NCBI RefSeq assembly: GCF_004151485.1 | Contig: NZ_SBFF01000008.1 | Coordinates: 186,001 to 250,000, forward strand | DNA length: 64,000 nt | Source of the DNA: Sphingosinicella sp. CPCC 101087 | Lineage (GTDB): Bacteria > Pseudomonadota > Alphaproteobacteria > Sphingomonadales > Sphingomonadaceae | Direction of reading: 5' to 3' | Shown here: one piece after another, positions 11,990-17,282 of the stretch | Numbering within the stretch: the first letter of the stretch is position 1 | Layout: each line of letters starts with the position of its first letter | Notes under the pieces: model-generated | The model's input: the letters and a program-made list of their open reading frames with translations, nothing else | Database searches by the model: none | What the model was told of the DNA's origin: nothing | Made by a program: the position numbers and the translations under genes

Positions 11990-13411
11990 TCAATCCAGTC
12001 GCGTCGCCGGCATCCCCTCCCCGCCGCGGCCGTCGCCGTAGAGGACGAGCCCGGTGATTCGCCCCTCGGCGTCGAGCTGGAACGACAATTCGTCATTGCC
12101 GGTATCCAGGAAGAAGTCCCGAGGCCCGGTCGGAAAGAATTCGGATATGCCGTTGCCGGGCCGATGAACGAGCAGGTGCGAATCCTTGCGGGCCAGTTCC
12201 AATATCCGACCGTCGGCGAGCCGATAGCGGCCGGCATAGCCGTCGAGCGTCGCCCGATCGACGGCGACGATGCTGTTCCGCGGGGCATCCGGCGCTGCCG
12301 GCAACGGCCGTCCCGCCAGCAGATGAAGGGCGATCCCGATCGGCTGGTCGTCGGTCCTGGCATTGGCGAGGACCACAATGCCGCGTCCGGTCGCCGGATC
12401 GAACGCGACGCCCGAGCGATAGCCCTGCTTGCCCCCGGCGTGACTGACCATATTCTCGCGGGTGATGGCCCAGCCGAGCGCCTGCCAGCCGGGAGGCAGA
12501 GGGACACGCTCGCGCAGCTGCAGGGCAATGGCCGCCGCGAGCGGCGTGCGCTCGGGCTCGAGATAGGCGACGACGAACTTCATGAGATCGTTGGCGGTCG
12601 AGCGGAGCGACCCCGAGGCCGGCATGTTCAACATCTCCCAGGTGCGCACGGGTCGCAGATAGCGGTCGTGGCCCGGTGCCAGCCGCCGCTCCTGGTCCGG
12701 CCGCAGCCGGATCGACGTGTCGTTCATGCCCAGCGGGTCGAGAATGCGCTGCCTGAGCAGGGCTTCATACTCCATGCCCGCCCGCCGCGCGAGCAATCGG
12801 CCGAGCAGGGTCACGCCGAGATTCGAATATCCCCAACGCGCGCCGGGCTCGCGCGGCAGATCGTAGGTCGACAGGAAATGATGGAGCTGCTCGACCGAAT
12901 AGGCCTCGTACGGATCGGGCTCGCCGTCCAGCGACAGATTGGTCGGCATGGAAGGCAGCCCGGACATGTGCGTCGCCAGATCGCGCAAGGTGATCGGCCG
13001 TCCGCGCTCGGCCAGGGTGACTCCGGGCGGCAGATAAAGCGAGGCCGGATCGTCGAGCCCTACCTCGCCGCGCACGACCATCTCCGCGAGCAGCAGGGTC
13101 GTGAAGCCCTTGGTGACCGATCCGATCTGGAACACGGTATCGCCGTCGAGCGGCCGATCGTCCGCTGCGCCGCTCCGGCCATGAGCGATGATGCTGCGCC
13201 GGCCCGGCCCGATCACGCCGGCGACGATGCCGACGCCGTTGCCCTCCATCCGTTCGGCCAGCAGTCGGCGGATTTCGTCGTCGGAAGGAATGGCTTGCGC
13301 TTGCTGCGAGACGACCGGCTGCGCAGCGACGGCGGCCGGCGCGCACGAGCCTGCCAAGAGCATGACCAGCGCGAGGGCCGATACGCCCCGGTCCAAGGTT
13401 CCGAATTGCAT
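11990..13411 (-). CDS. Secreted serine hydrolase of the class C beta-lactamase family
   Basis: The 473-residue protein has a signal peptide (hydrophobic stretch to about residue 30, Ala-rich cleavage region), then a penicillin-binding-type domain with the nucleophile motif SVTK, the YSN motif and an HAGG box in place of the KTG triad. The last about 100 residues look like the extra beta-barrel domain often found in esterase-type members. The substrate cannot be named; esterase, D-aminopeptidase or beta-lactamase activity are all possible. AAGGGGAG ends directly before ATG 13417, so the second ATG (13411, spacing 6) is the better start. It is divergent from the MarR gene, with a candidate operator between them. 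Confidence 0.85.
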   Translation of the reverse strand: MQFGTLDRGVSALALVMLLAGSCAPAAVAAQPVVSQQAQAIPSDDEIRRLLAERMEGNGVGIVAGVIGPGRRSIIAHGRSGAADDRPLDGDTVFQIGSVTKGFTTLLLAEMVVRGEVGLDDPASLYLPPGVTLAERGRPITLRDLATHMSGLPSMPTNLSLDGEPDPYEAYSVEQLHHFLSTYDLPREPGARWGYSNLGVTLLGRLLARRAGMEYEALLRQRILDPLGMNDTSIRLRPDQERRLAPGHDRYLRPVRTWEMLNMPASGSLRSTANDLMKFVVAYLEPERTPLAAAIALQLRERVPLPPGWQALGWAITRENMVSHAGGKQGYRSGVAFDPATGRGIVVLANARTDDQPIGIALHLLAGRPLPAAPDAPRNSIVAVDRATLDGYAGRYRLADGRILELARKDSHLLVHRPGNGISEFFPTGPRDFFLDTGNDELSFQLDAEGRITGLVLYGDGRGGEGMPATRLD

Positions 13412-13536: not shown

Positions 13537-14076
13537 ATGGCAAGCGAGCAGGAAGAGGATTTCGTTCGGCGGCAGGGGCCGGCCTTCCTGGCGCATCTGC
13601 TGCGCCGGCTGTCCGACACGCTCGTGGACGGATGCGCGGAATGGCATCCGGAGCAGGGCGTAAGCAGCGCACCGCGCACTTCCTCGACCTTGCTCGCGCT
13701 CGACGAAAAGGGCAGCCTCTCCGTGACCGAGCTGTCGGCCCTGCTGCGCCAGTCGCACCCGCTGGCCATTCGCTGGATCAAGCAGCTGCGAGAGCTGGGC
13801 CTCGTGACTTCCGAGAAGGACTCTACTGACGGTCGGCGTTCCTTGATTTCGCTGACCGCGGAAGGGAAGGCGACGGTTGCGCGGCTGCGCCGGGTGCTGG
13901 CGGTGGTCGACCGGGCGATGCTGGAGCTTTCCGAGGAGGCGATGCCAGGCCTGGTGGAGGGCTTGTGGAGGATGGAGGCAGGACTCCGCGCCAAGCCCTT
14001 CATCGAGCGCCTCAGGGCACTCGATCACGCCACTTCGTCGACGAACGCCGACGAGCCGGGAGTCTATCGCCGCTGA
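13537..14076 (+). CDS. MarR-family transcriptional regulator
   Basis: This 179-residue winged-helix protein shows the MarR layout: an N-terminal dimerisation helix, LSVTELSALLRQSHPLAIRW as the helix-turn-helix (about 61-80), the wing segment EKDSTDGRRSLISLT (about 94-108) with the conserved DGR, and a long C-terminal helix. TAGGG lies 4 bases before ATG 13537. It is divergent from the secreted serine hydrolase and probably controls it and itself through the dyad at 13463-13476. The last 65 bases overlap the 3' end of hisN on the opposite strand. Confidence 0.88.
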   Translation: MASEQEEDFVRRQGPAFLAHLLRRLSDTLVDGCAEWHPEQGVSSAPRTSSTLLALDEKGSLSVTELSALLRQSHPLAIRWIKQLRELGLVTSEKDSTDGRRSLISLTAEGKATVARLRRVLAVVDRAMLELSEEAMPGLVEGLWRMEAGLRAKPFIERLRALDHATSSTNADEPGVYRR

Positions 14077-14857
14077 GCAGCCGCACGGCCTGCTCGAACA
14101 GGGCCGGGCTCGCGGCCGCCAGCAGCTGACCGTCGCTCAGATCGTCGCCGCCGGCCCAGTTGCCGACCACCCCACCGGCGCCGCGGATCACCGGCACCAG
14201 GGCGTTGAGGTCGTGCGGACTCAATCCCGATTCGGCCACCAGGTCGATCGAGCCCGCCGCCAGCCGGGCGTAAGCATAAGCATCGTAGCCGTAGCGGGTC
14301 ACCCGGATCGACCGGCGCAGCCGCTCGAACGCCTCCGCCTCGGTGCCGGCGAACAGATAGGGATCCGTCGTCGACAGCCGCGCCTCGCCCAGGCCAGTGC
14401 AGCCGGAGGTCCGGAGCGTTTGCCGGTCCCCGCCGCTCTCGACCCAGGCGGCTTCCCCGGTCCCGACATAGCGTTCGTCAAGACGCGGCACGTCGATCAC
14501 GCCGACCGCCGGCTGGCGCTCGTGCAGCAGGGCGATCAGGGTCGTCCAGCCCGGCATTCCGCAGATGAACGCCCGCGTTCCGTCGATCGGGTCGAGGCTC
14601 CAGACGAAGGAGCCCCGCGCCGGCCGCGGCTCCAGTTCCTCCCCTTCGATGCCATGATCGGGATGATGCGCCTCGATCAGCACGCGCATCACCCGCTCCG
14701 CCTCGCGATCGGCCTCCGTGACGGGATCGAACCGTCCGCCGCCGCTCTTGTCCTCGCAGGCGATCCCCGCCGCGGCCGCCGGCAGCGTCACGTCGCGTGC
14801 CGCGTCGGCGAGCCGACAGGCGAAGGAGGTCAGGGCTTTCCAGTCCGCGCTCGCCAT
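14012..14857 (-). CDS. hisN: Histidinol-phosphatase, inositol-monophosphatase family
   Basis: The 281-residue protein has the metal-binding motifs of the inositol monophosphatase fold: GEELE, WSLDPIDGTRAF (about 97-108) and a C-terminal PHDLNALVPVIRGAGG. HisN-type members dephosphorylate histidinol phosphate. The cluster at 5.4-11.9 kb lacks any other histidinol phosphatase, so this gene probably completes the pathway. Inositol-phosphatase or CysQ-like activity on PAP is an alternative. ATG 14857 is preceded by GGAAGG and, further out, GAAGGAG. An upstream in-frame extension exists but is low-complexity. Its end overlaps the convergent MarR gene by 65 bases. Confidence 0.85.
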   Translation of the reverse strand: MASADWKALTSFACRLADAARDVTLPAAAAGIACEDKSGGGRFDPVTEADREAERVMRVLIEAHHPDHGIEGEELEPRPARGSFVWSLDPIDGTRAFICGMPGWTTLIALLHERQPAVGVIDVPRLDERYVGTGEAAWVESGGDRQTLRTSGCTGLGEARLSTTDPYLFAGTEAEAFERLRRSIRVTRYGYDAYAYARLAAGSIDLVAESGLSPHDLNALVPVIRGAGGVVGNWAGGDDLSDGQLLAAASPALFEQAVRLLSGDRLPARRRSSTKWRDRVP

Positions 14858-14981
14858 CCTTCCGCTCTCTCCTTCGCTACCGCCCTCGACCGCGGAACGC
14901 CATCGCGCCCCAAAAACCATTTGCCAACCATTCATTCCTTACATACGAGGCCAGGAGGCGACGCATTCGTGCGCCGCCGAA

Positions 14982-15120
14982 GCATTCAGAGTGGGCCCTG
15001 GCGGCCCACGCCAACCTGCCCACCCGGGCAAGGTGGCGGTCCTGGACAAGGGACGATGCGGCCGATCCGGCAACCAAGCGGGTCTCGAGCAGCACAGTCC
15101 CTTCGAGTGTGGAGAAGGAA
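14982..15120 (+). promoter_or_regulatory. Candidate SAM-clan riboswitch with Shine-Dalgarno-sequestering platform before metX
   Basis: The metX leader folds as a three-way-type core. P1 is GCAT 14982-14985 with ATGC 15056-15059. P2 is GTGGGCC/GGCCCAC (14991-14997, 15003-15009). P3 is 15010-15021 with 15026-15037, and P4 is GTCC/GGAC (15039-15042, 15051-15054). P3 contains CCAACC opposite GGTGG, giving C-G and A-U pairs beside an unpaired A (15012-15014 against 15034-15035), the arrangement of the SAM-I ligand site. The P4 3' strand AAGGGAC (15048-15054) can alternatively pair with GTCCCTT (15097-15103). When it does not, CCTTC (15100-15104) can pair with GAAGG (15114-15118) and hide the ribosome site. 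This gives SAM-dependent repression. It does not look like SAM-II. Confidence 0.55.
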
Positions 15121-16119
15121 TTGAAGCTGCTGGATCTCAAGGCCCCGAAAACGACGGTGGAGCCGCGGCCTGCGCGGCAGGCGCCCCCCCTTGCCGAGTT
15201 CGAACTGCCCTTGCCCGCCCCTCTCGCCGGCTATGGCAGCTCGGCGCTTTTCTCGCTGCACGGCCGCCAGGACGGGCCGCTCATTGCCGTGCTCGGCGGC
15301 ATCTCCGCCGACAGGTTTCCAGCCTTCTGTCCCGACGGGCGTCCGGGCTGGTGGCGCGGCCTTGCCGGCCCCGGCTGCGCCGTCGACCCTGCCCGCCACC
15401 GGATTCTCGGCATGGACTTCATTGCCGATCCCACCGGCGCGCGCGCCCCGGCGACGCACGAGCAGGCGGCGATCCTCTGCGCCGCGCTCGATTTTCTCGG
15501 CGTCGAGCGGGCGCATGCCGTCGTTGGCGCCTCTTATGGCGGCATGATCGCGCTCGCGCTCGGCCAGCATTTTCCCGAGAGGGTGGAGCGGCTGACCGTC
15601 GTCTCGGCCGACGCCCAGCCGCACCCAGCCTCGACCGCGGCGCGCGAACTGCAGCGGCGGATCGTCGCGCTGGGCCTCGAGACGGGGGACCCGGACGAAG
15701 CGTTGTCGATCGCTCGCGGTCTCGCCATGATGACCTATCGCACCCGCGAGGAGTTCGCCGAGCGGTTCGAGGGCGGGATCCCGAGCGAGCAGTGTCTCGA
15801 CCGCTCCGAACCCGGCGCCTATCTGCGGGCCCGCGGCGCCGCCTTCGTCGCCCGGATGACTCCCCAGCGCTTCCTCAGCCTCTCCGCGTCGATCGACCGC
15901 CACAAGGTGGATCCGGCCCGGATCCGAGTCCCTGCCTTGCTGATCGGCGCCGATAGCGACCAGCTGGTTCCCGCCGCGCAGATGGAGAAGCTGGCCGCAG
16001 CCTTCGGAGGCCCTGCCGAACTTCGACTGCTGGCCTCCCTCTATGGGCACGACATGTTTCTCAAGGACAGCGACCGCGTCTCCGCCCTGGTCGATCCGTT
16101 CCTGAGGAAGGCGGCGTGA
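15121..16119 (+). CDS. metX: Homoserine O-acyltransferase, probably succinyl-specific
   Basis: This alpha/beta-hydrolase of 332 residues acylates homoserine, the entry step to methionine. It has the nucleophile elbow GASYGG (Ser about residue 141), an HGRQDGPLIAVLGGIS segment after the first strand, and the YGHDMFL acid/His region at the C-terminus. The frame has no ATG near the conserved region. TTG 15121 is chosen because GGAGAAGGAA lies directly upstream with ideal spacing; GTG 15109 is the alternative. The neighbour is a MetB-type cystathionine gamma-synthase, which uses O-succinylhomoserine, so a succinyltransferase (MetXS) is likelier than an acetyltransferase. Expression is probably controlled by the leader RNA at 14982-15120. 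Confidence 0.85.
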   Translation: MKLLDLKAPKTTVEPRPARQAPPLAEFELPLPAPLAGYGSSALFSLHGRQDGPLIAVLGGISADRFPAFCPDGRPGWWRGLAGPGCAVDPARHRILGMDFIADPTGARAPATHEQAAILCAALDFLGVERAHAVVGASYGGMIALALGQHFPERVERLTVVSADAQPHPASTAARELQRRIVALGLETGDPDEALSIARGLAMMTYRTREEFAERFEGGIPSEQCLDRSEPGAYLRARGAAFVARMTPQRFLSLSASIDRHKVDPARIRVPALLIGADSDQLVPAAQMEKLAAAFGGPAELRLLASLYGHDMFLKDSDRVSALVDPFLRKAA

Positions 16120-17282
16120 CCGAAAAGCGCAGCCCCGCCACGATCGTCGCCACCGCCGGGACCCGCGCCGACTCCGGCCGCGCCAGCGTCACGCCGCCGA
16201 TCTGGACCTCCGACACCTATCGATGGCCCGATTCCGACACCAAGCCGCCTTACGATTATTCGCGCACCGTCAATCCCAATCGCGACCTGCTCGCAGACGC
16301 CTTGGCGGAGCTCGAAGGGGCGAGCGGCGGCGCGGTCACCGGTTCCGGCCAGTCGGCGGCCCTGCTGGCACTGCTGCTCCTGCCGGCGGGCGCGCTCGTG
16401 GTCGGGCCGCACGATTGCTATGGCGGGACCTACCGGCTGATCAAGGGGCTGGAGGAGCAGGGAAAGCTCCGCGCGCTTTTCGTCGACCAGGCCGACGACG
16501 AAGCCGTCGGGGCGGCGCTGGCGAGGCAGCCGGCCTTGTTCTGGATCGAGACGCCCAGCAATCCGCTGCTCCGGATCGTCGACATCGAGAAGCGGGCCCG
16601 GGAGGCCAAGGCCGCCGGCGCGCTGGTGATCGCCGACAATACCTTGCCGACGCCGTGCCGCCAGCGGCCGATCGCGCTCGGCTGCGACCTGGTCATGCAT
16701 TCGACCACCAAGGCGCTGAACGGCCATGCCGACCTGTTCGGCGGCGCGATCCTCGCCGCCGACCCGGCGCTGGTCGAGAAGATCCATTGGTGGGCCAATG
16801 CCGCCGGCCTCAGCGCCTCGGCGCAGGATGCCTGGCAGACGCTGCGCGGCCTGAGGACGCTGCCGCTGCGGGTCGACCGGCAGGAGGCGACCGCCCGCAA
16901 GCTGGCCGAGTGGCTGTCAGGCCATGAGCGCGTGCTGGAGATCCATTATCCGGGCCTCGACAGCTTCCCCCAGAAGGCGCTGGCCGACCGGCAGCAATCG
17001 GGTCCCGGCTTCATGATCAGCTTCCGAGTCAAGGGCGGCAACGCCGCGACCGGCGGCTTCCTCGCCGCGTTGGAGACCGTCACGCTCGCTTCGTCGCTGG
17101 GCGGCTTCGCGACCCTGATCTGCAAGCCCGCGACGATGACGCATCGCGGCATGCCGCCCGAAGCCCAGGCCGAGGCCGGAATCCATGGCGACCTGCTTCG
17201 GCTGTCGGTCGGCCTCGAGGAGCCCGAGGATCTGATCGCGGATCTGGAGCGGGGGTTCCAAACCTCGAAACGCGGAGCCTGA
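16116..17282 (+). CDS. metB: Cystathionine gamma-synthase
   Basis: This is a 388-residue PLP enzyme of the Cys/Met metabolism family. It combines O-succinylhomoserine with cysteine to cystathionine. Segments close to E. coli MetB are DYSR near residue 46, PHDCYGGTYRL (about 93-103), ETPSNPLLR, HSTTKALNGHAD with the PLP lysine, KIHWWAN, and ATMTHRGMPPEA. The PHDCYGG and WWAN segments favour MetB over the sulfhydrylase MetZ, though substrate use cannot be fixed by eye. The GTG start overlaps the metX stop (GTGA), so the two form one operon. Confidence 0.88.
   Translation: MTEKRSPATIVATAGTRADSGRASVTPPIWTSDTYRWPDSDTKPPYDYSRTVNPNRDLLADALAELEGASGGAVTGSGQSAALLALLLLPAGALVVGPHDCYGGTYRLIKGLEEQGKLRALFVDQADDEAVGAALARQPALFWIETPSNPLLRIVDIEKRAREAKAAGALVIADNTLPTPCRQRPIALGCDLVMHSTTKALNGHADLFGGAILAADPALVEKIHWWANAAGLSASAQDAWQTLRGLRTLPLRVDRQEATARKLAEWLSGHERVLEIHYPGLDSFPQKALADRQQSGPGFMISFRVKGGNAATGGFLAALETVTLASSLGGFATLICKPATMTHRGMPPEAQAEAGIHGDLLRLSVGLEEPEDLIADLERGFQTSKRGA

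Follow-up and report, generated by a model that had tools for sequence, protein, structure and literature searches.

A SAM-I/IV riboswitch predicted to repress translation of the metX-metB operon in a sphingomonad

The window, meaning the whole 64-kb stretch of DNA analysed, contains on its forward strand a metX-type gene overlapped by a second gene of the metB/metZ type. The two are preceded by a leader carrying a SAM-I/IV aptamer followed by a predicted hairpin over the Shine-Dalgarno region, and a HisN-like gene lies further upstream on the opposite strand. The features are listed below (coordinates in the window, strand, description, with the basis in brackets).

14012-14935, minus strand: HisN-like gene, upstream of the riboswitch (253.4 bits, under the cut-off of 275.15)
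14977-15087, plus strand: SAM-I/IV aptamer (RF01725 match and alignment)
14982-14986/15055-15059, plus strand: P1 (fold, comparison)
14991-14997/15003-15009, plus strand: P2, a plain hairpin with a 5-nt loop (sequence, fold, comparison)
15010-15037, plus strand: P3 with the predicted SAM pocket, CCAACC at 15011-15016 facing GGUGG at 15032-15036 (sequence, comparison)
15022-15026/15079-15083, plus strand: PK-2, between the P3 loop and the tail (own versus swapped pairing)
15039-15042/15051-15054, plus strand: P4 (fold, comparison)
15061-15064/15068-15071, plus strand: P5, outside the junction (Rfam alignment, comparison)
15048-15054/15097-15103 plus 15057-15059/15092-15094, plus strand: predicted alternative (anti-sequestering) helix (shuffles, genus leaders)
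15088-15131, plus strand: predicted hairpin sequestering the Shine-Dalgarno region together with the start codon (minimum-energy folds)
15100-15104/15114-15118, plus strand: core of this hairpin, CCUUC with GAAGG (minimum-energy folds)
15095-15098/15120-15123 and 15088-15093/15126-15131, plus strand: flanking pairs of this hairpin (minimum-energy folds)
15121-16119, plus strand: metX-type homoserine O-succinyltransferase gene with a TTG start (NF006449, 309.9 bits, cut-off 296)
16116-17282, plus strand: cystathionine gamma-synthase-like gene of the metB/metZ type that overlaps metX (PF01053; best NCBIfam match of the product TIGR02080, 446.5 bits, under the cut-off of 504.55)

When the 64-kb window was searched with Rfam, the SAM-I/IV model (RF01725) matched the forward strand at 14977-15087 with 57.7 bits (cut-off 41.1, E = 6.9e-7), the alignment covering all 99 model positions (1-99). 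This was the sole Rfam match of the window at gathering threshold and the single RF01725 match in the genome. A preliminary description, made from the sequence alone, had proposed a comparison with the covariance models of the clan, among which SAM-I/IV scored above its cut-off and best. The minimum-energy fold of 14977-15150 (-79.8 kcal/mol, z = -2.91, equal or greater stability in 2/200 shuffles) contained P1, P2, P3, P4 and the Shine-Dalgarno hairpin. All four helices lay where the preliminary description had placed them, with CCAACC facing GGTGG in P3 as it had stated. Two elements had been overlooked there: PK-2, and P5, which is missing from the minimum-energy fold and was drawn from the Rfam alignment and comparison. 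The SAM-clan pocket letters CCAACC/GGUGG are present in the metX leader.

P2 was correctly described as plain, with 7 consecutive pairs at 14991-15009 and neither an internal loop nor a kink-turn. Inspection gave no PK-1, the P2 loop having 5 nt and a single base (15038) separating P3 from P4. P4 lies between P3 and P1, and P5 and PK-2 both sit outside the junction, as membership in SAM-I/IV requires. SAM-I (RF00162) was rejected because it needs a kink-turn in P2 and PK-1, whereas the leader has a plain P2 without room for PK-1, and its best match in the clan is SAM-I-IV. SAM-IV (RF00634) needs P2a/P2b and PK-1 and lacks P4, whereas P2 is undivided here and P4 covaries. SAM-II (RF00521) was discarded because its covariance model found no match in the 64-kb window, which agrees with the lack of SAM-II likeness noted earlier; a search of the genome itself gave no match either (0/1), but it says little, since the control genomes gave none. 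According to the available text of PMC6890682, SAM-I/IV is set apart from SAM-IV by an undivided P2, a missing PK-1 and the presence of a P4 helix, and that of PMC2864571 describes variants whose P2 has no internal loop, known from several phyla and from marine DNA. Since a plain P2 and a junctional P4 are hallmarks of SAM-I/IV, the metX leader represents no new type of the SAM clan; the sequence comparisons make it a well-supported, ordinary member of the described class.

Compensating changes, which the preliminary description had suggested seeking in P1-P4, were examined among relatives. Each genome search contributed loci for its best matches only, weaker ones receiving none; 65/72 loci entered the covariation alignment, yielding 63 distinct alphaproteobacterial sequences, while L048, L061, L065, L069, L071, L078 and L080 were omitted beforehand as divergent. 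Standard pairs made up 97.7% of the helix cells in this alignment, which is biased towards the structure because a genus-derived model was used to fit it; sliding the helix partners lowered the paired cells to 30.1-47.6%. Changes on both sides occurred in 17/29 pairs, against a mean of 9.8 after shuffling, and none of 500 shuffles reached this number. Both sides changed in 2/5 pairs of P1 (100% of cells paired), 6/7 of P2, 4/4 of P4 (97.9% of cells paired) and 3/4 of P5, and 6/9 pairs of P3 were invariant. The closing pair of P3, which had been called unusual, is G-C and thus the commonest type at this place (40/63 sequences), so that part of the description fell. For PK-2, which was scored in unfitted sequences, pairing of each loop with its own tail exceeded swapped pairing, the mean score being reached by 0/500 permutations (63 sequences); examples are CCCG/CGGG, TCCG/CGGA, GCTCG/CGAGC and AGACCGG/CCGGTCT. 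Inside the genus the aptamer is nearly invariant, with changes on both sides in 3/34 pairs and with CCAACC and GGUGG unchanged across 16 leaders.

RF01725 was found in 16/26 genomes of the genus. An initial sample of 60 relatives had suggested restriction to the genus (16/26 inside versus 0/34 outside), which was corrected by wider samples: with stricter filters, through which weak matches can escape, the model matched in 36/298 sampled family genomes and 35/385 sampled class genomes. SAM-I/IV is not rare in the class. SAM-I was detected in just 1/199 sampled genomes of the family. Several copies can occur in one genome, as in G301 (two about 3.4 kb apart, at 12298 and 15761 of contig C310) and G624 (four copies on four contigs).

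In all 16 riboswitch-bearing genomes of the genus, metX has the orientation of the riboswitch and lies no more than about 2.2 kb past it, immediately following it in 8/16 and past an intervening 1.0-2.2 kb in the other 8/16. This stretch was typed in three cases, all below model cut-offs: the gene of L003 resembles an aspartate kinase-homoserine dehydrogenase fusion, and those of L005 and L006 resemble homoserine dehydrogenase. No riboswitch was found in the 7 genomes of the genus without a strong metX match (0/7; Fisher p = 0.00018). Three further genomes carry metX without it (G010, G017 and G021, the metX gene of the last being cut by the contig end); scanning them at E values up to 1 gave no SAM-clan match, and the pocket letters are missing from the sequence upstream of metX in G010 and G017. 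Elsewhere, SAM-I/IV precedes a gene for L-threonine 3-dehydrogenase in L043 (typed) and L054 (similar protein start only). SAM-I (RF00162) takes its place before metX-type genes in a Brevundimonas (L025:2631-2748), an alphaproteobacterium (L026:2757-2875) and a Parvularcula (L027:2756-2874); in a tree of 22 metX sequences, rooted for drawing only, these three SAM-I-associated genes split from the rest with support of 100/99.

A block, TTTGCCAACC...CTTACATA, lies upstream of the aptamer at 14918-14947 and recurs by eye in L011. It may belong to the promoter; a scan of 14800-15200 for sigma-70-type promoters reported none, the block included. Intrinsic terminators were sought in the same interval, with no terminator-like site found, which fits translational control.

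The preliminary description had recognised by eye two exclusive pairings before the TTG at 15121, and both are present: AAGGGAC (15048-15054) with GTCCCTT (15097-15103), and CCTTC (15100-15104) with GAAGG (15114-15118). By inspection, the 3' strand of P4/P1 has its best downstream partner at the identical place in 16/16 leaders of the genus. The alternative helix of the window itself was equalled by 2/200 shuffles, and in 13/16 genus leaders at most 15/300 shuffles did so (mean z = -2.4), the shuffles preserving single-base content only; 109/5000 swaps between leaders matched the own pairing. The competing P4 pairing thus held up beyond the window. When the alternative helix was forced, and compared with the aptamer forced, the purines before the start codon became more open (by >0.05) in 10/16 leaders and less open in 1, with a mean change of +0.16 across all 16 (Wilcoxon p = 0.0017), in energies that exclude PK-2 and SAM. 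The leader of the window is outside these ten, its predicted opening being small (0.61 to 0.66); with a cruder choice of the Shine-Dalgarno region, 10 of the 16 went up and 6 down, among them the window (0.66 to 0.60). L009, L010, L012 and L014 form a sub-group whose start region is covered by a different hairpin, CAUCU pairing with AGAUG at the start codon, and which keeps the competing P4/P1 pairing.

Comparison thus supports mutually exclusive downstream pairings and a translational platform in this leader. Binding of SAM would stabilise P1, P4 and PK-2, and the stabilised aptamer would retain AAGGGACGAUGC, the 3' strand of P4/P1. The strand downstream of it, GUCCCUUC, would then be available to the Shine-Dalgarno region as a partner, and translation would be switched off. 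Without SAM, the P4/P1 3' strand would instead pair with the downstream strand, leaving the ribosome-binding site open and translation on. The alternative helix, the opening of the purines before the start and the lack of a terminator suggest that SAM represses translation, and it is highly probable, judging from sequence and predicted folds, that the SAM-I/IV riboswitch (RF01725) acts in this way on the metX-metB operon.

The same aptamer could also exert its control mainly through competition for the PK-2 strand or through Rho-dependent termination rather than through the P4/P1 helix. PK-2 does covary, and a structural study of SAM-I/IV reportedly counts a pseudoknot, stabilised by SAM, among the elements of the switch; downstream pairing of the P4/P1 3' strand beyond shuffles in 13/16 genus leaders, together with a predicted hairpin that covers the ribosome-binding site, makes this mode of control unlikely. 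An altered ligand specificity, for instance for a SAM derivative or a polyamine, is far less probable still. It is suggested by the C at position 14987 of J1/2, which is mostly A in the genus leaders (C in 4/16), and by SAM-I variants that sense spermidine and are altered in J1/2 and in the internal loop of P3, reported in the accessible part of PMC10853860; against it, none of the 16 genus leaders departs from CCAACC and GGUGG, position 14987 varies among class loci, and the downstream genes are metX and metB, not polyamine genes. The preliminary description was right to place a SAM-clan riboswitch ahead of metX-metB, but its proposal of a reduced or new variant, in whose favour stands a P2/P4 layout unlike SAM-I, SAM-II and SAM-IV, is the least probable of all and can be set aside, given the full-length match to RF01725 above cut-off and a layout that is that of SAM-I/IV as described in the available text of PMC6890682.

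Under the preferred reading, translational repression by way of the P4/P1 3' strand, the genus can be compared with other SAM-I/IV loci. Platforms were counted at 67/71 loci, with L058 left out for its register and L048, L063 and L065 because no P1 3' strand was found; the counts ignore kinship and retain near-identical loci such as L077 and L079. Of the class loci, 26 come from other families; in 16/26 of these, downstream pairing by the P2 5' arm with its loop was equalled by no more than 15/300 shuffles, and own pairing surpassed swapped pairing with z = -6.7 (0/5000 swaps). The P4/P1 pairing reached this level in 0/26 of the same loci (own versus swapped, 301/5000). The genus gave no sign of P2-arm switching: none of its leaders (0/16) stayed within 15/300 shuffles, their mean z was +1.1, and comparing own with swapped pairing also gave z = +1.1. 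At 25 other loci of the family, each of the two pairings reached the 15/300 threshold in 6/25, with 3/5000 swaps for the P2 arm and 657/5000 for P4/P1. One example of P2-arm pairing in the class set (L029-L083) is GGGCUGACGC with GCGUCAGCCC. The metX leader of Sphingomonas daechungensis (L024) forms a duplex in a like register, but 115/300 shuffles equal it.

The 5' arm of P2 therefore seems to be the switching strand in many class loci of other families, and not in this genus. That alphaproteobacterial SAM-I/IV riboswitches combine one aptamer with at least two switching helices, the P2 5' arm pairing with the anti-Shine-Dalgarno strand in many loci of other families and the genus having shifted its switch to the P4/P1 3' strand, is put forward tentatively, as a possibility somewhat short of even. 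The difference in platform is possibly new; a description of such a two-platform arrangement was not found in the open-licence literature searched. If true, a single riboswitch class would have changed the wiring of its expression platform and retained its aptamer, and the 16 genus leaders, set against those of other families, would form a natural series on platform change under a fixed aptamer. The sphingomonad metX-metB operon is, in addition, assigned to a known riboswitch class.

Among known systems, SAM-II occurs before met genes in Alphaproteobacteria (available text of PMC4239095), but it has a different fold from the metX leader. SAM-IV shares P5, PK-2 and the common SAM core, and differs in having P2a/P2b and PK-1 and in lacking P4, as far as the accessible part of PMC6890682 describes it. 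A parallel in operon content is the Xanthomonas met operon with its SAM-I riboswitch, for which the available text of PMC7270179 was used. This riboswitch controls genes for homoserine O-succinyltransferase and cystathionine gamma-synthase together with one for homoserine dehydrogenase, and its control is mainly translational, by an anti-Shine-Dalgarno stem and without a Rho-independent terminator, as is proposed for the metX leader; it differs in the kink-turn of its P2 and in having, in that account, no additional pseudoknot, and its platform additionally binds uncharged initiator tRNA (PMC7270179). With SAM-I/IV (RF01725) the leader shares the undivided P2, the lack of room for PK-1, the junctional P4, the outer P5 and PK-2 and the SAM-clan core, so that its aptamer differs by small sequence changes only; in its platform, the genus appears to switch through the P4/P1 strand, whereas the SAM-I/IV loci of other families in the class would do so through pairing of the P2 arm.
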